This document shows positions 34,958 to 47,275 of a DNA stretch of 64,000 nucleotides, piece after piece (position 1 is the first letter of the stretch; each line of letters begins with the position of its first letter). The stretch is from positions 434,001-498,000 of the forward strand of contig NZ_PDEQ01000001.1 in NCBI RefSeq assembly GCF_002554795.1, read 5' to 3'. The position numbers and the translations under genes are program-made. Origin of the DNA: Longibacter salinarum. Its GTDB lineage: Bacteria; Bacteroidota; Rhodothermia; Rhodothermales; Salinibacteraceae. Under the pieces are notes generated by a model. The model ran no database searches and was not told the DNA's origin. It was given only the letters and a program-made list of their open reading frames with translations.

Positions 34958-34974
34958 CATACTAGGCTCCCTTG

Positions 34975-36069
34975 ATGTCCGACGACTCCAGACACGTATC
35001 TGAATCCACTGAGCTTCAGATTTCCACCGGATCACCTCGCACCTCGGATCTGAGTCGGTCGATCGACGAGTTGCCGTTCAATGGTCCGACTGATGATAGG
35101 CATTGCTCCATCGAATCGGATCATCTCCTTGTCCGTCGCTGGTTAGCCGAAAAAAGCCCGCGTACGCAAGACGAGTATCTCAGTGACATTGAGCAGTTCG
35201 TGGACTTTGTCGACCTGCCATTTCAGTACGTGACGCTGGGCCATCTGCAAGAATATCGTGCGCATTTGGCGAACGATCACGATTACGCCCGGTCGACGCA
35301 GGCCCGCAAAATATCGGCGGTCAAAAGTCTCTACACGTTCGGTGCGCGGATCCAGTACTTTGCCCATAACGTTGGAGCGGCCTTAAAGACGCCCAAGGTC
35401 CGTAATAAACGGGCTGAGCGTATTCTGTCTGAAGCCGAACTATGGGCTATTCTGCGCGACGAAACCGACCTTCGGAATCACTGCATTCTTCGGCTCTTCT
35501 ACGCATCAGGCGGCCGCGTGTCAGACTTGGAAGAACTTGCCTGGCGAGACCTTAAAGAACGCCCAGATCTGAAAGGCCGTGACGGCCTTCCAGGTGGTCA
35601 GGTCACCTTTTTTGGAAAGGGCGAAAAGACGCGGGCAGTTAGCTTGTACAGCAAGGTGTGGATGCTAATCCAAGAGCTCCGCACTCGCGAAAAGGCCGAA
35701 GATCGTGGAGGTGCAAACGATCCTGTCTTTCGGTCTCAAAAGGGCGGATTTCTGACGCGTACAGCATTATGGCGCGTCGTCAAGAAGGCAGCGACACGTG
35801 CTGACGTCCAATTGAAACCCAAGACCGACTCTTCTGGACGACAGATACTAGACGAAGACGGCGACCCTGTAATGACCTCAGCGGTCTCTCCACACTGGTT
35901 CCGTCATGCACACGCCTCTCACGCGCTACAGAAAGGCGCAGACCTCGAACTGGTGCGCCAGACGCTCGGTCACGAAAGCATAGAGACGACAAAAATGTAC
36001 CTTCATGTGCAACCGGACAAATCCTCATCCTATTATGTCGATGAAGCACCCGACTTTCGAGGCGACTAA
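34975..36069 (+). CDS. tyrosine recombinase (XerC/D-like)
   Basis: Site-specific recombinase of 364 residues from the ATG at 34975 (a TTG lies one codon earlier). The N-terminal SAM-like core-binding domain covers about 48-140 (LVRRWLAEKSPRTQDEYLSD). The catalytic domain carries the full set: Arg181 in ASGGRVSDLEEL, Lys215 in FFGKGEKTRAV, His307 and Arg310 in PHWFRHAHASH, His333 in LGHESIETTKMY, and nucleophile Tyr342. The first 45 residues are polar and extra compared with XerC. It converges on a second, divergent recombinase gene 65 bases away. Whether it is the chromosome-dimer recombinase or an integrase is not decidable from the window; no att-like repeats were seen. Confidence 0.9.
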   Translation: MSDDSRHVSESTELQISTGSPRTSDLSRSIDELPFNGPTDDRHCSIESDHLLVRRWLAEKSPRTQDEYLSDIEQFVDFVDLPFQYVTLGHLQEYRAHLANDHDYARSTQARKISAVKSLYTFGARIQYFAHNVGAALKTPKVRNKRAERILSEAELWAILRDETDLRNHCILRLFYASGGRVSDLEELAWRDLKERPDLKGRDGLPGGQVTFFGKGEKTRAVSLYSKVWMLIQELRTREKAEDRGGANDPVFRSQKGGFLTRTALWRVVKKAATRADVQLKPKTDSSGRQILDEDGDPVMTSAVSPHWFRHAHASHALQKGADLELVRQTLGHESIETTKMYLHVQPDKSSSYYVDEAPDFRGD

Positions 36070-36134: not shown

Positions 36135-37115
36135 CTACGCGCCGCTGATGGAAAGATTTTCCCCAACCTCGACGTAGTCCGCAGCGCTGTCGCGAAGCCG
36201 CTCTTCATGTCGCGCGGAATACGGTGCCGATGCCGCATATCGACCGTGGGCACGCACCTGGTCGCCCGTCGCCCCAGATTCCAGCGCCAGTTGAAGACCG
36301 GTCTGGCGTAGACGGTCCGGCGTTAATGCGTCGATGTCAATCGCTTGACCTGCATCTCGAACGACACGGTACACCGAATCGCCGGTAATCCGTGCTCCAC
36401 GGTTTCGGTTGCTGTACGACCGAAACAGTGCACCGACCCGCACATCCACGTCCATTCTCACGGCTTGTACGTGTCTATATACGTGTTCGGGGACTTTTGC
36501 ACGGCCTGAGAGGGTCTCGATTTTGTCCTGGTGGCCGCTCTTTGTCTGATCAGACCCAGAAATCGATGTCGAACCTGATTCTGAGTCTCGAATCTCCAGG
36601 ATCCGGTATCGGCCAACAAGCCGGAAGTCATCGACATTCACACGCACGAGTTCACCCCGGCGAAGCGCGCAATGCAGCACCAGCATCACCAGAGCCCGAT
36701 TTCGCCGCCCGACAGCCGTGGATCCATCAATCGACGCAACGAGCTTTTCTGCTTGATCGCGAGACAGCGGTCCCGATGACTTTTCTTGCCCACTCGTCGA
36801 CGCCGGCCGCGCCATCGGCGTGCGGATTCGCCCATGACGAGCTGGATTGCTCGTGACCACTCCTTCGGCCGTCAGCCAGTCGAAAAACTGCCGAAGTGCA
36901 GACCTCCGCCGGCGCAAGGTTGATTCGGCCAGGCCGCTGGATTCACCTCGCGCAAGAAACGCATCAATGTCGTCGTGGTCGACACCGCACACGAGGTCCT
37001 TCGTGACCTCGGTTTGACCGAAGAAGGCGCGAAGGTCTCGTCGATATGCCCGCCTCGTGTGAGGAGACTCCTTCTGGTGAACAAAACTCTCAACGAGAGA
37101 AACCGGTCCGCCCAC
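36135..37115 (-). CDS. divergent tyrosine recombinase
   Basis: Protein of 326 residues with an N-terminal core-binding domain (about 5-95, VESFVHQKESPHTRRAYRRD) and a tyrosine-recombinase catalytic domain. Visible catalytic positions are the box I Arg of CALRRGELVRV (152 or 153), Arg270 in LTPDRLRQTG, His290 and nucleophile Tyr299 in RAHGRYAASAPY (correct spacing of nine). In box II the usual His-x-x-Arg is Asp267-x-x-Arg270, so one catalytic His is replaced; the Lys is not obvious. It may be slow, need a partner, or act structurally. The gene is convergent with the intact recombinase 65 bases away. Confidence 0.75.
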   Translation of the reverse strand: MGGPVSLVESFVHQKESPHTRRAYRRDLRAFFGQTEVTKDLVCGVDHDDIDAFLARGESSGLAESTLRRRRSALRQFFDWLTAEGVVTSNPARHGRIRTPMARPASTSGQEKSSGPLSRDQAEKLVASIDGSTAVGRRNRALVMLVLHCALRRGELVRVNVDDFRLVGRYRILEIRDSESGSTSISGSDQTKSGHQDKIETLSGRAKVPEHVYRHVQAVRMDVDVRVGALFRSYSNRNRGARITGDSVYRVVRDAGQAIDIDALTPDRLRQTGLQLALESGATGDQVRAHGRYAASAPYSARHEERLRDSAADYVEVGENLSISGA

Positions 37116-39511: not shown

Positions 39512-39742
39512 TTACGTACGCTCTCTCTGCGGTAGAGCCGGAGATGGCGACGGGACGTCGTGAACGGGAGATCGATCTCCGCTAAACGATGGAGGCGGAG
39601 GTTGTGGCTCCCAGTTCGGACCGCCGGGTGGCCCTCCTGATGAGCCGGAATCGTTGCTCCAGATCAAATGCCACAGAAGAGTGCATAAGATCACAGGGCC
39701 GAACGCCACAAAAAAACTGAGGACCTGATAAATCCAGTTCAT
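39512..39742 (-). CDS. small membrane protein, proline-rich tail
   Basis: A 76-codon gene. Residues 1-28 form one hydrophobic helix (MNWIYQVLSFFVAFGPVILC start), followed by an Asp/Ser/Gly hinge and a Pro-rich cytoplasmic or periplasmic tail (residues 37-70). No family is recognised. The 85-codon gene at 42815 has a similar plan: an N-terminal helix and a Pro/Asp tail. The hydrophobic start and clean frame support coding, but chance cannot be excluded. Confidence 0.5.
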   Translation of the reverse strand: MNWIYQVLSFFVAFGPVILCTLLWHLIWSNDSGSSGGPPGGPNWEPQPPPPSFSGDRSPVHDVPSPSPALPQRERT

Positions 39743-40247: not shown

Positions 40248-41789
40248 GTGCCTGTGGACTACGATGTTATTACCGTCGGAGCCGGACACAATAGCCTCAT
40301 TACCAGCGCCTATCTGGCTCAGGCCGGCTATCGTGTCGGTGTCTTTGAGCGACGCGACATCGTCGGCGGGGCGGTCTCGACCAAGGAAATCATTCCCGGT
40401 TATCAATTCGATCTCGGTGGGAGTGCACACATTCTGATACGTCTTACGCCGATCGTCGATGAATTGGAATTGGGACGCTTTGGGCTGGAGTATATCGATC
40501 TAGATCCCCTCTTCTTTGCCCCGTTTCCGGATGGAGATGCGGTCTTCATGTACAGAGATGTCGACCGAACGGCGAACCATCTCGAAGAGAAATTTCCCGG
40601 TCAGGGCGAGGCGTATCGTCGCTTCATTGATGATTGGTCTGGCTTTGCGCGCACGATGCGGGAGATGTTTCTTACCACCCCGAACCCGCTAAACCTCGGC
40701 AAGAAGATGGTCATGGGGGCTTCGACTCGCCTCAAATGGTCCACGGAGCTTCGGCATATCTTACGGCCGTATGGACATGTCGTCGGAGAATACTTTGAGG
40801 AGGAGAAAATCCGTGCGATGCTGTCATGGATGGCTGCCCAATCGGGTCCTCCGCCTTCTGAGCCCCTCACGGGTCCATTCGTTCTGTGGCACCCGCTGTA
40901 TCACGAAGGTGGCGTAGCACGCCCACGAGGCGGATCCGGCATGCTAACTCAGGCTCTCCGAAAACATATCGAAGCACACGGTGGCGAGGTGCACACGGAG
41001 GCTGAGGTTAGCGAGATACTCGTCGAGGACGGCAAAGCACGGGGCATTCGCGTCAATGACCAGGTGTACACCGGCCGCGCCGTCGTGTCGGGCACCCACA
41101 TCCTCGAAGTTCTCGACCGCTTGCTCCCTCCAGCATATCGCCCCGAGTCTGCCGATGGAATGCGTGTCGGAAACGGGTTCGGCATCATGCTTCGTCTCGC
41201 CCTGGATGAGCCGGTTGAATACGCAGCCCATCCTGGGAAGGATGCGCGAATGGGTCTACAACTGCTGTGTAGAGACACCGATCAGATTTTCAACGCGTAC
41301 GGCGAGTATTTGGGCGGACACCCGGCAACGGATCCCCCCATTGTTGCGATGACCTTCAGCGCCGCAGACGACACACTGGCGCCACCTGGAGGTGAAGTGC
41401 TATGGCTGTGGGGACAGTACTTCCCGTACGAGTTGTCTGACGGCTCCTCATGGGATGAGATTCAGGACAGAATCGCAGATCGGCTGATCGACACGTTTGA
41501 AACGTACGCGCCGCGTACGCGAGATAAGATCGTCGGGCAACTATTTCAGCACCCGGAGTGGCTGGAGTCGAAGCTCGGCCTACGCCGGGGAAACGTGATG
41601 CATCTCGAGATGAGCCTCGATCAGATGTTTGCCGCTCGACCGGCCCTGGGAATGTCCGAATACCGGAGCCACCTCGACGGTCTGTACCTGACAGGTGCAA
41701 GCACGCACCCCGGCGGAGGCATCATGGGCGCATCAGGGCGGAATGCAGCGCGTACATTGCTCGGCGACCTGGACCGGCGACGCGTCTAG
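40248..41789 (+). CDS. crtO: carotenoid 4-ketolase, CrtO type
   Basis: FAD-dependent carotenoid oxygenase related to phytoene desaturases, which puts a keto group on the beta-ionone ring. The 513-residue protein starts at GTG 40248 (or GTG 40254). The dinucleotide fold is [19 protein letters not shown] near residue 10. Blocks shared with Rhodococcus and Deinococcus CrtO include [20 protein letters not shown] (about 40-59), [22 protein letters not shown] and the C-terminal [17 protein letters not shown]. It heads a locus with a lycopene cyclase and a xanthorhodopsin. In Salinibacter the antenna carotenoid salinixanthin carries such a keto group, so the three genes probably serve one light-harvesting pump. 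Confidence 0.83.
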
Positions 41790-41891
41790 CGTCTGTCAGG
41801 TCGGCTTTTTTCGAACGTGAGTTAAGCATGCATGCTGATCTGACCGGAGGTTCGCCGTCTTCGTCACAACATTGTATGCTCCCATAGAGCG

Positions 41892-41921
41892 ACTCGGGGA
41901 ATGAAATGATGCGCCCCGAGT
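41892..41921. repeat. hairpin between crtO and crtY
   Basis: ACTCGGGG (41892-41899) and CCCCGAGT (41914-41921) form an 8-bp perfect stem with a 14-base loop, 52-81 bases before the lycopene cyclase. No U run follows. It may be an operator or may modulate read-through from crtO. Confidence 0.35.
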
Positions 41922-41972
41922 ACACGGCGTACAACGACGATTCCGATTCCATCAACCCTCGGCTCCGTTTGC

Positions 41973-42749
41973 ATGACGTATTTGATGTTCCATTTTGTTT
42001 TTACGTTGCCGGTCATCATCGGGTTGGCGGCGACGCTTCCACGCCCTCTTGGTGGGGTTGGTGGTAGACGTGGGCGCTGGGCGATCCCTCTCCTGTGCGT
42101 GATCGCTTTCTCCTATACGACGCCCTGGGACAATTATCTCGTGGCAAACGACGTGTGGTGGTACGGAGCCGATCGCGTCATCGCGACGATTGGGTACGTG
42201 CCAGTTGAGGAATACATGTTTTTCCTCCTCCAGCCCGTGTTAACCGGACTTTTCCTGTATCACGTGCTCGGACGACTGGGATATGCTGACCGTCGAAGCG
42301 GCCTGCTCCCTCACGTTCTCGGCGCAGCATTTTGGCTACTCGTATCAGGCATTTCTTTCTACCACTTACGCTCCGGACCGGACGACGCATTCTATCTCAG
42401 TCTCATCCTGGCGTGGTCTGGTCCGGTGCTCGCTGGTATGTGGCTATACGACGGGAAGACGTTGTGGGCGAAGCGGAAGACCATGCTCGTCGCGGTCGGA
42501 GTGCCAACTCTCTATCTCTGGTTCGCGGATGCAATCGCCATCTACGCCGGGATCTGGACGATTTCTACCGACTACACTCTCGGTTTGAAAGTCTGGACAC
42601 TGCCTGTTGAAGAAGCGACCTTTTTCCTCGTAACGAATCTTCTTGTGGTAAAAGGCATCCTTCTTTTTCTATATGGAAGCCACGAGTCGATCCAATCTGC
42701 AACGAGCAAACCATCCCGGGCAGATACTCCGGAAATGGCGCAAGGATAA
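41973..42749 (+). CDS. lycopene cyclase, fused CrtYc-CrtYd type
   Basis: Integral-membrane lycopene beta-cyclase of 258 residues, built from two homologous CrtYc/d domains as in archaea and Salinibacter. Domain 1 (about 1-110) has SYTTPWDNYLV and GYVPVEEYMFFLLQPV. Domain 2 (about 125-240) has ADAIAIYAGIWTIS and VWTLPVEEATFFLVTNLLV. The PxE(E) glutamates are the conserved catalytic candidates. About seven transmembrane helices are evident. It would turn lycopene or a derivative into beta-ring carotenoid, the substrate of the CrtO ketolase upstream. The start ATG follows 183 bases after crtO. Confidence 0.9.
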   Translation: MTYLMFHFVFTLPVIIGLAATLPRPLGGVGGRRGRWAIPLLCVIAFSYTTPWDNYLVANDVWWYGADRVIATIGYVPVEEYMFFLLQPVLTGLFLYHVLGRLGYADRRSGLLPHVLGAAFWLLVSGISFYHLRSGPDDAFYLSLILAWSGPVLAGMWLYDGKTLWAKRKTMLVAVGVPTLYLWFADAIAIYAGIWTISTDYTLGLKVWTLPVEEATFFLVTNLLVVKGILLFLYGSHESIQSATSKPSRADTPEMAQG

Positions 42750-42814
42750 GAATAACGCGCACGGGGAAAAGCGGGCTACGTACGACCCACTAGAGGGGAT
42801 TTTCCGAAACGCCG

Positions 42815-43072
42815 ATGTATATCGACTACATCATCCTCGGCATTCTAAGCATCGCGGTTGTCCTATGGGCCTACTCGCGTCTCCCCGAGGAGAATGACGA
42901 CGACTCCGATGGCGGACAATCTGTACCGGTTCAACCATCGGATGATGATCCAGCTCCCACGCCGGGGTCGCCCCCGACGCAATCCGTTCCGTCGACTGGG
43001 GACGGAGCGCATCGCGACGTCGATCCACAACCGAGCCCCCCTCGGCGCCGCGTGAAAGAGCAACCGGCGTAG
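42815..43072 (+). CDS. small membrane protein with acidic Pro-rich tail
   Basis: An 85-codon gene with an N-terminal helix (residues 1-21, MYIDYIILGILSIAVVLWAY) and a disordered Asp/Pro/Ser tail ending RRRVKEQPA. It stands 65 bases after the lycopene cyclase on the same strand and may be cotranscribed. No family is recognised; it resembles a single-pass accessory subunit or a signal-anchored peptide. Confidence 0.5.
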   Translation: MYIDYIILGILSIAVVLWAYSRLPEENDDDSDGGQSVPVQPSDDDPAPTPGSPPTQSVPSTGDGAHRDVDPQPSPPRRRVKEQPA

Positions 43073-43689
43073 ATACATCATGAGTATTTGCCGGGCACGC
43101 GGACACATACGTTTCCTCTCGACCGTCACGATGTATCAAGAAGAGTCGACGCCGGCTTGACTCTGGTGGATACGCGTTCCGCTCCTATTTCGCGTGCAAA
43201 TCCAGCCAGAGTGAAACGGTGTTGTATGAAGCATAACAATCATGTCTTCCGCGGATCTCAAGACGGTTTTCTAAGATTGCAGCGGTTGATGTTCTTGCGG
43301 CGACAAGACGATGGCAACGGTTGTAATCTTCTGATTACATGATTCCTTCACACGGGCGCCGGTAAAGCTTTTCCAGAGGCAGGTGCCCATATTGGAAGCG
43401 TTACCAAGAGGCTAAGACGTTTTGAACGTGCTTGGTCGCGATGCTTCATCGCACATGCCGCAACGAACGACTCTTTCTCTTCTCTCAGGTCCACACCCAT
43501 GGATCTGATACATCAGATGGAGGCCCGGTCGTATAGGTTACGTCTCTAACCAGTGCACAACGTGTTAGACGTGAACCGAAGGTCCATATACATGCTACGA
43601 CCGGTTTCTGATCGTGCGAGAAGATCGAAGGCACCTACCTTCGAGAAAGAGACCCCTTCTGCTAATCACCCAACAGCATACAGTTTATT
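43073..43689. other. 617-bp region upstream of xanthorhodopsin
   Basis: No convincing gene on either strand. It contains the palindromic site at 43322-43339 and presumably the rhodopsin promoter. The length suggests a regulated promoter, but I could not identify a clear -33/-7 pair. Confidence 0.5.
43322..43339. promoter_or_regulatory. palindrome upstream of xanthorhodopsin
   Basis: TGTAATC (43322-43328) and GATTACA (43333-43339) form a perfect 7-bp inverted repeat around TTCT, 351-368 bases before the rhodopsin start. The size and symmetry suit a dimeric regulator; the identity of the regulator is unknown. Confidence 0.4.
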
Positions 43690-44523
43690 ATGTCTCTCGC
43701 AATGACGCTCGAACTGCCGGATCTTACGCCGGGTCAGTTCAATCTGGTCTACAACATGTTCTCTTTCACGATCGCGACGATGTTTGCCGCGTTCGTGTAC
43801 TTTGTACTTGCACAGAAGAATCTCGCGCCGAAGTACCGCGTCTCGATGATGGTGTCGGCGCTTGTCGTGCTGATCGCTGGCTATCACTACTTCCGCATCT
43901 TCGGCAGCTGGGACGCGGCCTATGCGCTGGAGGGCGGCCAGTACGTGTTCCAGGATGACCAGCCATTTAACGATGCGTATCGGTACGTGGACTGGCTGCT
44001 GACGGTCCCCCTGCTTGTCGTTGAGCTTGTGCTCGTGCTCGGCCTTCCGAAGGGCGAAAGTGGGTCGCTCATGGCGCGTCTCGGCTTTGCTGCGGCGCTG
44101 ATGATCATTCTGGGCTACCCCGGTGAGGTAAGCGGCGACGCGTCCCTCATGGGAGAGCGCGGTCTCTGGGGCTTCATCAGCACGATTCCGTTCGTTTACA
44201 TCCTGTACGTGCTGTTCACTGAGCTCTCGAGCACGATCCAGCGGCAATCCGGTCGTGTTGCCAAACTTCTCTCGAATGCTCGCCTTCTCCTACTGGCAAC
44301 GTGGGGCTTCTACCCGATCGCCTACATGATCCCGATGTTCTCAGCGGGTTACCCGACGGAGACGCCGGGCGCGGTTGTTGCCCTGCAAGTCGGCTACACG
44401 ATCTGTGACGTGCTGGCGAAAGCCGGGTATGGCGTACTGATCTATGCCATCGCTAAAGCCAAGTCCGAAGAGGAAGGCTTTGTCGTGGATGAAATGGTCA
44501 AACCAGCGAGTGCCGAGGCCTAA
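43690..44523 (+). CDS. xanthorhodopsin-type light-driven proton pump
   Basis: Seven-helix microbial rhodopsin of 277 residues. Helix C has the proton-pump triad Asp101-Thr105-Glu112 (DWLLTVPLLVVE), helix B has His66 (counter-ion partner, as His62 in Salinibacter xanthorhodopsin), and helix G has retinal Lys244 in CDVLAKAGYG. Gly161 in LWGFISTIPF is at the place of xanthorhodopsin Gly156, where the missing side chain opens a fenestration for the ring of a ketocarotenoid antenna. Leu109 suggests green absorption. A strong terminator follows at 44562. The CrtO ketolase and lycopene cyclase genes upstream would supply the antenna pigment. No retinal-forming dioxygenase (blh) is in the window. Confidence 0.95.
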   Translation: MSLAMTLELPDLTPGQFNLVYNMFSFTIATMFAAFVYFVLAQKNLAPKYRVSMMVSALVVLIAGYHYFRIFGSWDAAYALEGGQYVFQDDQPFNDAYRYVDWLLTVPLLVVELVLVLGLPKGESGSLMARLGFAAALMIILGYPGEVSGDASLMGERGLWGFISTIPFVYILYVLFTELSSTIQRQSGRVAKLLSNARLLLLATWGFYPIAYMIPMFSAGYPTETPGAVVALQVGYTICDVLAKAGYGVLIYAIAKAKSEEEGFVVDEMVKPASAEA

Positions 44524-44561
44524 TCCCGGTCGCATGTACGTCTTTCCTATGGGAAAGTACA

Positions 44562-44596
44562 AACCCTGTCGCCTTTCCGAGGCGGCAGGGTTTTTT
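44562..44596 (+). terminator. intrinsic terminator of xanthorhodopsin
   Basis: AACCCTGTCGCC (44562-44573) pairs with GGCGGCAGGGTT (44581-44592), 12 bp with one wobble, over a 7-base loop, followed directly by TTTT. A smaller hairpin, CTTTCC/GGGAAAG, lies just before it. Confidence 0.85.
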
Positions 44597-44789
44597 GTAT
44601 GCGCCGTCACAGACAGTTGATGACCAGTAGACGCCTGAGCGAGACACCTCTGACGGACCGTGATTGATGATGACGTCTCAACACTCAATATGGACGCCCT
44701 CTCGATTCCAGATACGCTGCAGACATGCCGTAATCAGAAAGCATCTCTGGTCGGAATCGCGATTGGACATCGCGCTGGTCTGATGCGAA

Positions 44790-44858: not shown

Positions 44859-46181
44859 TCAGGAAGACGGGATATTAACCGCTTCCGTGAACGGAACCGC
44901 GCTATCGGCGGCGTGGCTACTTGGCGACGACGAGTCGGTTTCTGCAGACCGATCCGTCGAGGTTCCAGGGTCCCTAGACGTCGATCCCTGCTCGAGTCGA
45001 TCTGGTTTCGGCGGATCGTAAGAGAACTCGAGATTGCGAGTGCCCAGAATCGTGATCAGAGGAATCGCGAAGAAGACCGTTGCAAGGTATCCGAGGGCAT
45101 ACGCACGGTTCTTCACCGCAAGGTCGCCAAGACGTTCGGAAAGGCGAATCGGAATGTTACGAAGCCGCTTGATCGGTAGGAAAAGGGCAATTCCGTACAG
45201 GTTGAAGAACAGGTGGGCGAGAGCCACCTTCACCGCCGCCACCCCGCGAAGGGCCTCCGCGCTGCCAGGCTCCCCGGCGGAAGCGAGCACGAGCGCAGCG
45301 ACGATCGCCGTCATCGTCGTTCCAACGTTCGCGCCTAAAACGAATGGGTAGATCTGCGTGACCGTCAAAATCCCGGCGCCAACAAGCGGCACTGTGAGCG
45401 AGGTCGTAATCGACGAACTCTGGACCAGAAAGGTGAGCCCGACGCCAAAGAGCAGCGAAATGGCCGGTTGCCCGAAGATATATTTGTGCAGGAACTGTTC
45501 GGAGCGTCCGAGAACCAGGCTCTTCAACAGCGTCACGAGGAAGCGAAGCGAGAGAAAGAGCAGCGCGAGCCCAACGATGAGAACAATAATGCCGTTCTCA
45601 GCGGAAAGGCTGATGACGAACTTCGCAATGGGCTCGGTGATTTCCTTGACCGGGCTGAGAAGCTGCGTCCCCCCCACAGTTGCAATCGAATCGGTCAGAT
45701 ACGCCGCTGGCGTCGAAACGAACTTGAACATCAGTTCGAGAGGAAAGAGCGTCGCGACAGCGAGGAAGTTAAAGAAGTCGTGGACCGTCGCACCTGCCAT
45801 AGCGCGGCGAAACTCCTCCTTACGCGTAACCGAACCCAGCGAAACGATCGTATTCGTGACGCTCGTCCCGATGTTCGCTCCCATGATAATGGGAATGGCC
45901 CCCGCGATGTCGAGACCGCCGGCAGCAACGAGCGAAACCGTTAGCGTCGTGGTTGTCGACGACGACTGCACGAGCGATGTCGCCAGGATACCGATGAACA
46001 GCCCGACGAACGGGTTGGACGTCATACGGAGCAGACTCTCCGCCACGCCACTACCCATGAGCTTAAACGAGTCTCCCATCAGCTCGAGACTCGTAAAGAA
46101 CATGATCAGGACGCCCAGGAGGAAAAGAACCTGGAGCGTTGTGCTCTTTGGAGCAACCGTAGATTCCTGCGATGTCGTCAT
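44859..46181 (-). CDS. Na+/phosphate symporter family protein (PNaS/NptA)
   Basis: Inner-membrane transporter of 440 residues in the PNaS family, which couples phosphate uptake to Na+. The two inverted repeats each carry the signature QSSS: TSLVQSSSTTTTLTVSLV near residue 70 and FLVQSSSITTSLTVPLVGAG near residue 260, each followed by a GANIGTSVT or GANVGTTMT block. About eight to nine transmembrane helices are seen. The last 60 residues are a Ser/Asp-rich cytoplasmic tail; no PhoU domain is fused. A Na+-driven system suits a saline habitat. It is divergent from miaA. Confidence 0.88.
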   Translation of the reverse strand: MTTSQESTVAPKSTTLQVLFLLGVLIMFFTSLELMGDSFKLMGSGVAESLLRMTSNPFVGLFIGILATSLVQSSSTTTTLTVSLVAAGGLDIAGAIPIIMGANIGTSVTNTIVSLGSVTRKEEFRRAMAGATVHDFFNFLAVATLFPLELMFKFVSTPAAYLTDSIATVGGTQLLSPVKEITEPIAKFVISLSAENGIIVLIVGLALLFLSLRFLVTLLKSLVLGRSEQFLHKYIFGQPAISLLFGVGLTFLVQSSSITTSLTVPLVGAGILTVTQIYPFVLGANVGTTMTAIVAALVLASAGEPGSAEALRGVAAVKVALAHLFFNLYGIALFLPIKRLRNIPIRLSERLGDLAVKNRAYALGYLATVFFAIPLITILGTRNLEFSYDPPKPDRLEQGSTSRDPGTSTDRSAETDSSSPSSHAADSAVPFTEAVNIPSS

Positions 46182-46324
46182 AAAGGGGGTTCCAGCAGAC
46201 TGAGGGAACGACGAAGCTTCAGCGAGTATAGAGTGATCGCTGGACCTGTCTACGCCGCATCAGCGGTGTAGTCTTGTTATGCAAACGTAATGCAGAAGGT
46301 CGCCCCCTGGATCACCTTAGTGTT

Positions 46325-47275
46325 ATGAAAACATGCGTTCCGGATGAGGAGATTGATCCTCCAATTCTCACACTCGTCGGCCCGACCGCGGTCGGCAAAA
46401 CCTCACTCAGCCTTGCCCTTGCCCAACAGCTAAATGCGGAGATTATTTCGGCCGATAGCCGGCAGGTGTACGAGGAGCTAACGATCGGGACTGCTAAACC
46501 CTCGCCGTCCGAACTCGCGCAAGCGCCTCATCACTTCATCGGCGAACGATCTGTCGAAGGACCTCCATTTTCCGCCGGTGCATTTGCCGATGCGGCAAAC
46601 GCCCGGATTCGAGAGATTCGCGATCGCGGGAAACAGGCTATTGTCGTCGGAGGATCGACATTATACGTTCATGCGCTCCAGGAAGGGCTGGCCGACATCC
46701 CTGACGTCCCCACCTCCGTCCGTGAAGAACTGTCGGCTCGACTGGAGAACGAGGGGCCGGAGGCGTTGTACGCCGAGCTTCAAGAGGTGGACCCGACACA
46801 GGCAGAGAAGAATGATCCGACGAAGACCCAGCGTGTGATCCGGGCGCTAGAGGTCTACCACCACACTGGAAAACCGCTTACGCACTTTTACGAGAATCAA
46901 CCGGAGCCTCCGTTCTCGTACCGAACGGTCGTGTTGAATCGAGACCGCCAAAAATTATACGATAGAATCAACCGGCGCGTGGATCAGATGCTGGACGCGG
47001 GCCTCCTCGACGAAGTCCGCGAGGTGATGGAGTTGGATGTCAACCTGGACGAAGCCCCGCTGAGCACCATCGGATATCGAGAGCCCATCCAGCATCTCCG
47101 TGGGGACATCAACCGCGACGAGATGATCCGCCTCGTGAAACGCAACTCGCGGCGGTACGCCAAACGGCAGCTCACCTGGTTTCGGCGTTACGACGATTAC
47201 GTTTGGCTCGAAGCAGACGGAGCCGCACCCGAGGATGTCTTCGATGCCGTTGCGTTTGAACCGTCGGTCCGATAA
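46325..47275 (+). CDS. miaA: tRNA dimethylallyltransferase MiaA
   Basis: Transfers a dimethylallyl group to A37 of tRNAs that read UNN codons. From the ATG at 46325 (MKTCVPDEE) the protein has 316 residues with P-loop GPTAVGKTS (about 19-27), the substrate motif ISADSRQVY with the catalytic Asp, GTAKPS, VVGGSTLYVHAL and the C-terminal RNSRRYAKRQLTWFRR RNA-binding stretch. An in-frame start at 46274 would add an unconserved extension. It converges on the glycosyltransferase-methyltransferase gene with 37 bases between them. Confidence 0.95.
   Translation: MKTCVPDEEIDPPILTLVGPTAVGKTSLSLALAQQLNAEIISADSRQVYEELTIGTAKPSPSELAQAPHHFIGERSVEGPPFSAGAFADAANARIREIRDRGKQAIVVGGSTLYVHALQEGLADIPDVPTSVREELSARLENEGPEALYAELQEVDPTQAEKNDPTKTQRVIRALEVYHHTGKPLTHFYENQPEPPFSYRTVVLNRDRQKLYDRINRRVDQMLDAGLLDEVREVMELDVNLDEAPLSTIGYREPIQHLRGDINRDEMIRLVKRNSRRYAKRQLTWFRRYDDYVWLEADGAAPEDVFDAVAFEPSVR

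Follow-up and report, generated by a model that had tools for sequence, protein, structure and literature searches.

The closest described relatives of the locus considered here come from Salinibacter ruber and Rhodothermus marinus. For S. ruber, association of the carotenoid ketolase gene crtO with the xanthorhodopsin (XR) gene is already stated in a passage of PMC3646047 that cites the S. ruber genome paper. In R. marinus, which lacks a rhodopsin, the genes reported for a 4-keto monocyclic carotenoid encode CrtO, a lycopene cyclase, CrtB and CrtI and form one two-operon cluster (PMC5822342). We analyzed a stretch of 64,000 nucleotides from Longibacter salinarum (contig NZ_PDEQ01000001.1, positions 434,001 to 498,000 of the forward strand; hereafter the window), which carries crtO, the lycopene cyclase gene crtYcd and an XR gene. 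With high confidence, this locus is best explained by an S. ruber-type antenna pump located beside an older pair of carotenoid ring genes, whereby the rhodopsin gene would have been inserted later.

Xanthorhodopsin and carotenoid ring genes in the window

The following genes are central to the locus (positions refer to the window):
40248..41789, + strand: crtO, predicted CrtO-type carotenoid 4-ketolase, dependent on flavin adenine dinucleotide, CrtI superfamily, 513 aa (NF045689)
41973..42749, + strand: crtYcd, predicted fused heterodimer-type lycopene cyclase, 258 aa (TIGR03462, PF18916)
42815..43072, + strand: orf85, small protein with one N-terminal membrane helix and an acidic Pro/Gly-rich tail (homologues in 6 genomes)
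43690..44523, + strand: XR gene, predicted DTE proton pump with Gly fenestration, 277 aa (3DDL match, motif and pocket residues)
46274..47275, + strand: miaA, conserved flank that bounds the rhodopsin slot on the right (TIGR00174, 289 bits)

The product of 43690-44523 matches PF01036 (Bac_rhodopsin) with an E-value of 4e-39, and among solved structures the nearest is 3DDL, the xanthorhodopsin of S. ruber (E 1.6e-131, 76% identity). According to the genome search, it is the only rhodopsin in the 4.4 Mb genome of L. salinarum. Alignment with 3DDL equates H66, D101, T105, E112 and G161 of the window XR with H62, D96, T100, E107 and G156 of the S. ruber protein, and likewise Y212, D240 and K244 with Y207, D236 and K240. 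The protein carries the complete proton-pump motif, i.e. DTE together with the His-Asp pair and the Schiff-base lysine. All 15 carotenoid-pocket positions compared, including G161 and Y212, are the same as in S. ruber XR; 13 of these positions were taken from PMC4094778, PMC3646047 and PMC12308411, and two neighbouring positions were added in our analysis. The fenestration glycine alone is not diagnostic, as it is carried by most XR-type proteins among the 80 loci compared. In the rhodopsin tree, the XRs of the Salinibacteraceae including the window protein form one clade (Shimodaira-Hasegawa-like approximate likelihood ratio test [SH-aLRT] 98), from which only the divergent, fast-evolving copy of genome G014 is excepted, and by sequence relationship the window XR belongs to the S. 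ruber-type (subgroup I) xanthorhodopsins. Judged by alignment and tree, the window XR is a true S. ruber-type xanthorhodopsin with a complete 4-keto-carotenoid pocket, and the pump very likely binds a ketocarotenoid antenna resembling salinixanthin.

A previous sequence-only reading of the window had named Asp101, Thr105, Glu112, His66, Lys244 and Gly161 as residues of the pump, all of which were confirmed by the 3DDL alignment. It had also placed a CrtO-type ketolase, a fused cyclase and the pump on one strand, with which the open reading frames and the profile matches agree. The comparison with Salinibacter relatives that it had proposed reveals the same crtO-crtYcd-XR-miaA order.

The product of 40248-41789 obtains 326 bits with the NCBIfam model NF045689 (CrtO), compared to 148 bits with crtI_fam, 101 with CrtID and 82 with CrtD. 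Its orthologues across the Rhodothermales are 62-93% identical to it. Comparison with a genome of the same genus yielded a ratio of nonsynonymous to synonymous substitution rates (dN/dS) of 0.016 for crtO, which is indicative only, as dS is saturated at 3.4. Genome searches detected no PF00487 gene (CrtW ketolase) in the window genome (G000) or in G008, an S. ruber-like genome that encodes an XR 100% identical to that of S. ruber and a CrtO 69% identical to the window CrtO. S. ruber produces a 4-keto carotenoid, and because G008 has no PF00487 gene, CrtO would be the only evident ketolase of S. ruber. Carried over from the S. ruber-like CrtO, a 4-ketolase function of the window crtO product is plausible.

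In the window CrtYcd, TIGR03462 matches two stretches (128 bits vs a cut-off of 39), which reveals a CrtYc/CrtYd double domain, and PF18916 scores above cut-off on the second half. Since this crtYcd is the sole copy in the genome, its product must also serve any cyclic carotenoid required for retinal and thus plausibly serves both retinal and antenna.

In sum of likeness, the locus shares with that of S. ruber a 76% identical pump with identical pocket residues, the crtO-crtYcd-XR-miaA order and the flanks. It differs by the presence of orf85 between crtYcd and XR, by a sodium/phosphate (Na/Pi) transporter gene in front of miaA and by a larger gap between crtYcd and XR. At the level of the genome, the window organism differs from S. 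ruber in having a single rhodopsin and in lacking an S. ruber-like CrtID gene beside blh.

Age of the ring-gene pair and content of the rhodopsin slot

Sixty relative genomes were compared, and counts were taken from the result tables. Of the 60, 42 encode a CrtO orthologue with an identity of 62% or more, and in 39 of these 42 Rhodothermales genomes crtYcd is located directly downstream of crtO. Outside the family the two genes are adjacent in 18 of 21 cases, mostly in genomes without rhodopsin. Because the pair occurs throughout the order in rhodopsin-less genomes, its basic role is not that of providing an antenna. As read from this phyletic pattern, the data show that the crtO-crtYcd pair predates the pump at this locus and that the neighbourhood is less special than apparent.

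Within the family, the order baeRF-kynB-orf76-crtO-crtYcd-XR-miaA is common to Salinibacter altiplanensis, Salinivenus lutea, Salinivenus iranica, G008 and other members, with kynB or orf76 missing or undetected in a few genomes. Such conservation of gene order across genera is more than chance. XR occupies the slot between crtYcd and miaA in 15 genomes of the family and presumably in a 16th (G001, from the window genus), in which crtO-crtYcd-orf85 and XR are found on two contigs breaking in the gap. The arrangement crtO-crtYcd-miaA without a rhodopsin in between was observed in G033, G044, G046 and genus g3 (G003, G010), while G035 and G031 contain unrelated genes in the gap, which by inspection are ThiF-like, rhodanese-like and MFS-like. 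When slot content (XR, NDQ pump or none) is placed on the crtO tree, three changes are needed, readable as a single gain of XR, a single gain of the NDQ pump and one loss in g3; in this tree the crtO genes of g3 and of the window genus are sisters (SH-aLRT 84). A plasmid-borne module was also considered as an origin of the XR locus and rejected: PLSDB holds only relatives that are at most 50% identical.

The NDQ pump resides in genus g9:
L134:6124-7005 (G013), with partial copies in L189 and L135/L136: rhodopsin with N-D-Q motif, KR2-type

A single contig of G013 exhibits the order miaA, rhodopsin, crtYcd, crtO (with internal stop), kynB, baeRF, and the same arrangement is present on broken contigs in G009 and G016, which belong to the same genus. 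The G013 rhodopsin is closest to KR2-type sodium pumps, with 378 bits to 4xtl and 421 bits to 8jh0, the latter being labelled 'Xanthorhodopsin' in the PDB copy. This KR2-type protein fills the same slot as the window XR and keeps the fenestration glycine (156) and the Tyr207 equivalent. However, the g9 protein shares no more than 5-6 of the 15 residues of the XR pocket, and the window protein is an XR-family DTE proton pump by motif. DDR2, a related sodium pump, binds salinixanthin in vitro and thereby gains thermal stability (PMC10026069); on the topic of carotenoid antennas in Rhodothermales rhodopsins we found no literature. It appears improbable that the crtYcd-miaA interval is a true rhodopsin socket, in which different pumps each use a 4-keto carotenoid antenna and orf85 acts as dedicated pump partner in four genera. 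If it were, g9 would offer a naturally occurring case of a sodium pump served by a ketocarotenoid antenna.

Orthologues of crtO with an internal stop were seen in the metagenome-assembled genomes (MAGs) G013 (L134:8013-9545), G006 and G045 and may represent assembly errors or decay. The case of G013 is notable in that the slot holds the NDQ pump there.

Pathway genes elsewhere, orf85 and locus layout

In the window genome, crtB and a gene for a CruF-type hydratase (TIGR03460, 244 bits vs a cut-off of 155) are adjacent at C1:363-364 kb, away from the XR locus, and are adjoined by genes for a putative GT2 glycosyltransferase and a PlsC-like acyltransferase. The crtI gene is located at C2:642 kb and blh at C4:195 kb. 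Hence, crtB, cruF, crtI, the putative glycosyl- and acyltransferase genes and blh occupy three other places, and the carotenoid genes that R. marinus keeps in one cluster are dispersed. The possibility that the whole antenna pathway lies inside the XR locus is ruled out by these genome searches. The sequence-only reading had proposed a compact locus encoding both the pump and synthesis of its antenna, which holds for the pump and the two ring steps and is overstated for the remaining pathway.

From this gene set, a monocyclic 4-keto carotenoid glycoside ester of the salinixanthin type is expected. Neither a 3',4'-desaturase nor a 2'-hydroxylase was identified in the window genome, a gap also reported for R. 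marinus (PMC5822342). The window-genome CrtI was considered as the missing 3',4'-desaturase CrtID, which is unsupported by its score (351 bits vs a cut-off of 640). A cruF homologue with 31% identity to that of the window genome adjoins crtB in G028 (L175, 1331-3070), a one-contig Rhodothermales genome; the paper on R. marinus carotenoids reports no CruF homologue (PMC5822342).

The small orf85 is a real conserved gene with homologues in 6 genomes belonging to genera g1, g4, g5 and g6, among them:
L187:6094-6336; L006:11109-11339; L125:8517-8756 (- strand); L131:5938-6174: orf85 homologues

Its helix follows the pattern MYIDYIILGxxSxAxxxWAY, and no Pfam or NCBIfam family matches the protein. 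Five of the six homologues are found at the XR locus, in g1 between crtYcd and XR (for G001 presumably so, across the contig break) and in g4, g5 and g6 downstream of XR. The sixth (G005, C27 near 12.7-12.9 kb) has blh and miaA as neighbours and lies near the end of its contig, resembling the arrangement in G014. Saturation of dS made dN/dS of orf85 non-computable. Homologues were absent from every Salinibacter-genus genome searched as well as from g3 and g9. Because Salinibacter lacks orf85, the XR function known from S. ruber does not depend on it. The small membrane protein at 42815 had been suggested to be an accessory part of the pump: in its four genera this is possible, but a general requirement is contradicted by the absence from Salinibacter.

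The intergenic distances are 183 bases for crtO-crtYcd, 940 for crtYcd-XR and 617 for orf85-XR, and with this spacing the genes do not resemble a single compact operon. Further features of the region are:
44561..44593, + strand: intrinsic-terminator-like hairpin of 15 pairs followed by a T run, predicted from sequence only to end the XR transcript
39512..39742, - strand: orf76, conserved gene for a small membrane protein that precedes crtO in opposite orientation and accompanies it in most genomes of the family
44859..46181, - strand: Na/Pi cotransporter gene (PF02690, 129 bits)

Terminator-like hairpins in the region are not more numerous than in shuffles, and the promoter scan of the region returned nothing above shuffles. 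In G000, G001 and G006 the Na/Pi cotransporter gene separates XR from miaA, and in the rhodopsin-less G031 it lies in the crtYcd-miaA interval. Two tyrosine-recombinase-like integrase genes (XerC/XerD-type by inspection) are arranged end to end at 34972-36069 (+) and 36135-37115 (-), separated from the carotenoid genes by a few kb, and a similar integrase-like gene is present near the L178 locus.

Alternative explanations and proposed function

The neighbourhood might be an accident of one ancestral insertion that was then inherited vertically, the pump and the carotenoid genes being linked neither in function nor in regulation. Predating of the rhodopsin by crtO-crtYcd and persistence of the pair without it would both be accounted for, as would an origin of XR in the slot, for which one event on the crtO tree can suffice; the gap of 940 bases containing a separate gene and the terminator following XR suggest separate transcription. 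However, occupation of the same slot by an unrelated NDQ type implies more than one entry or exchange of rhodopsins at this position, and XR-crtYcd linkage recurs, with different gene orders, in further families and phyla. We therefore regard such an accident as possible, but doubtful.

A second alternative derives from loci with the order XR-crtYcd-blh and no crtO, as in Rhodothermales L020, L022, L026, L028, L029 and L108/L128, all outside the family. An Opitutales MAG (L014) displays the order crtYcd-blh-XR, also without crtO, and G014 has blh inside its XR locus. G034 carries both types, i.e. an XR-crtYcd-blh operon and a separate crtYcd together with crtO, cruF, crtB and crtI. These XR-crtYcd-blh sets are likely retinal-supply operons. 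They resemble the window in that XR adjoins a CrtYcd cyclase, but differ in that XR comes first, blh is present and crtO is absent. Because blh accompanies both genes in other Rhodothermales, in L014 and in G034, a link between XR and crtYcd can mean retinal supply. For the window, CrtYcd would accordingly make the beta-ring (beta-carotene) for cleavage by Blh, and crtO would merely be carried along. This is unlikely given that blh is on another contig in the window genome, that crtO is always kept with crtYcd in the family, upstream of it, and that the XR pocket is fully of the keto-carotenoid type.

It is very improbable that the CrtO-like enzyme is a 3',4'-desaturase in the role of CrtD rather than a ketolase: the genome contains only two clear CrtI-superfamily carotenoid genes with no CrtD by model, and salinixanthin-type end groups require 3',4' desaturation, but the CrtO model far outscores CrtID and CrtD (326 vs 101 and 82 bits), neither G000 nor G008 has a PF00487 ketolase to supply the 4-keto group, and R. 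marinus makes keto and non-keto forms with its CrtO as the proposed ketolase (PMC5822342).

Several points weigh against an S. ruber-type antenna pump beside older ring genes. With 326 bits, the window CrtO does not reach the strict NF045689 cut-off of 1000, so that the protein is named CrtO-type and not a certified equivalog. The S. ruber-like G008 has a CrtID-like gene beside blh (633 bits vs a cut-off of 640), and a CrtID/CrtD-like desaturase of this kind is missing from the window genome; the antenna may therefore differ from salinixanthin at the end opposite the keto ring. The crtO tree was built quickly from one gene, and several of its branches score below 90. A shared transcript for crtYcd and XR is made less likely by the gap of 940 bases. 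Moreover, R. marinus is a recorded salinixanthin producer without a rhodopsin (PMC5822342), and hence the carotenoid need not serve a pump.

For the preferred explanation, i.e. an antenna pump beside ring genes of greater age, we envision the following scenario. CrtYcd would cyclise one end of lycopene and CrtO would ketolate it, generating a 4-keto-beta ring, while the other end of the carotenoid would be finished by CruF and the putative glycosyl- and acyltransferases encoded elsewhere. The resulting 4-keto, salinixanthin-like carotenoid would bind at the Gly161/Tyr212 fenestration and pass excitation energy to XR, which is predicted to act as a retinal-based light-driven outward proton pump with Asp101 as primary acceptor, Glu112 as donor and Lys244 as Schiff base. 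Pump and ring genes would presumably be co-expressed. In evolutionary terms, a rhodopsin gene was probably inserted between crtYcd and miaA in the family ancestor, after crtO and crtYcd had become paired, and depending on the genus the slot now contains XR, a KR2-like NDQ pump or no rhodopsin.

As linkage of crtO and XR is already in the literature, the novelty is modest and consists in the pair being older than the pump, in a second kind of pump in the slot and in orf85 in four genera. The S. ruber-type antenna-pump locus is extended to another genus, and an order of events is gained, in which the carotenoid ring genes came first and the pump later. With orf85, an undescribed small protein becomes a candidate partner of XR, its accompaniment of XR in four genera being new. 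Lastly, the NDQ pump in the slot of g9 provides a natural test of ketocarotenoid antennas beyond proton pumps.

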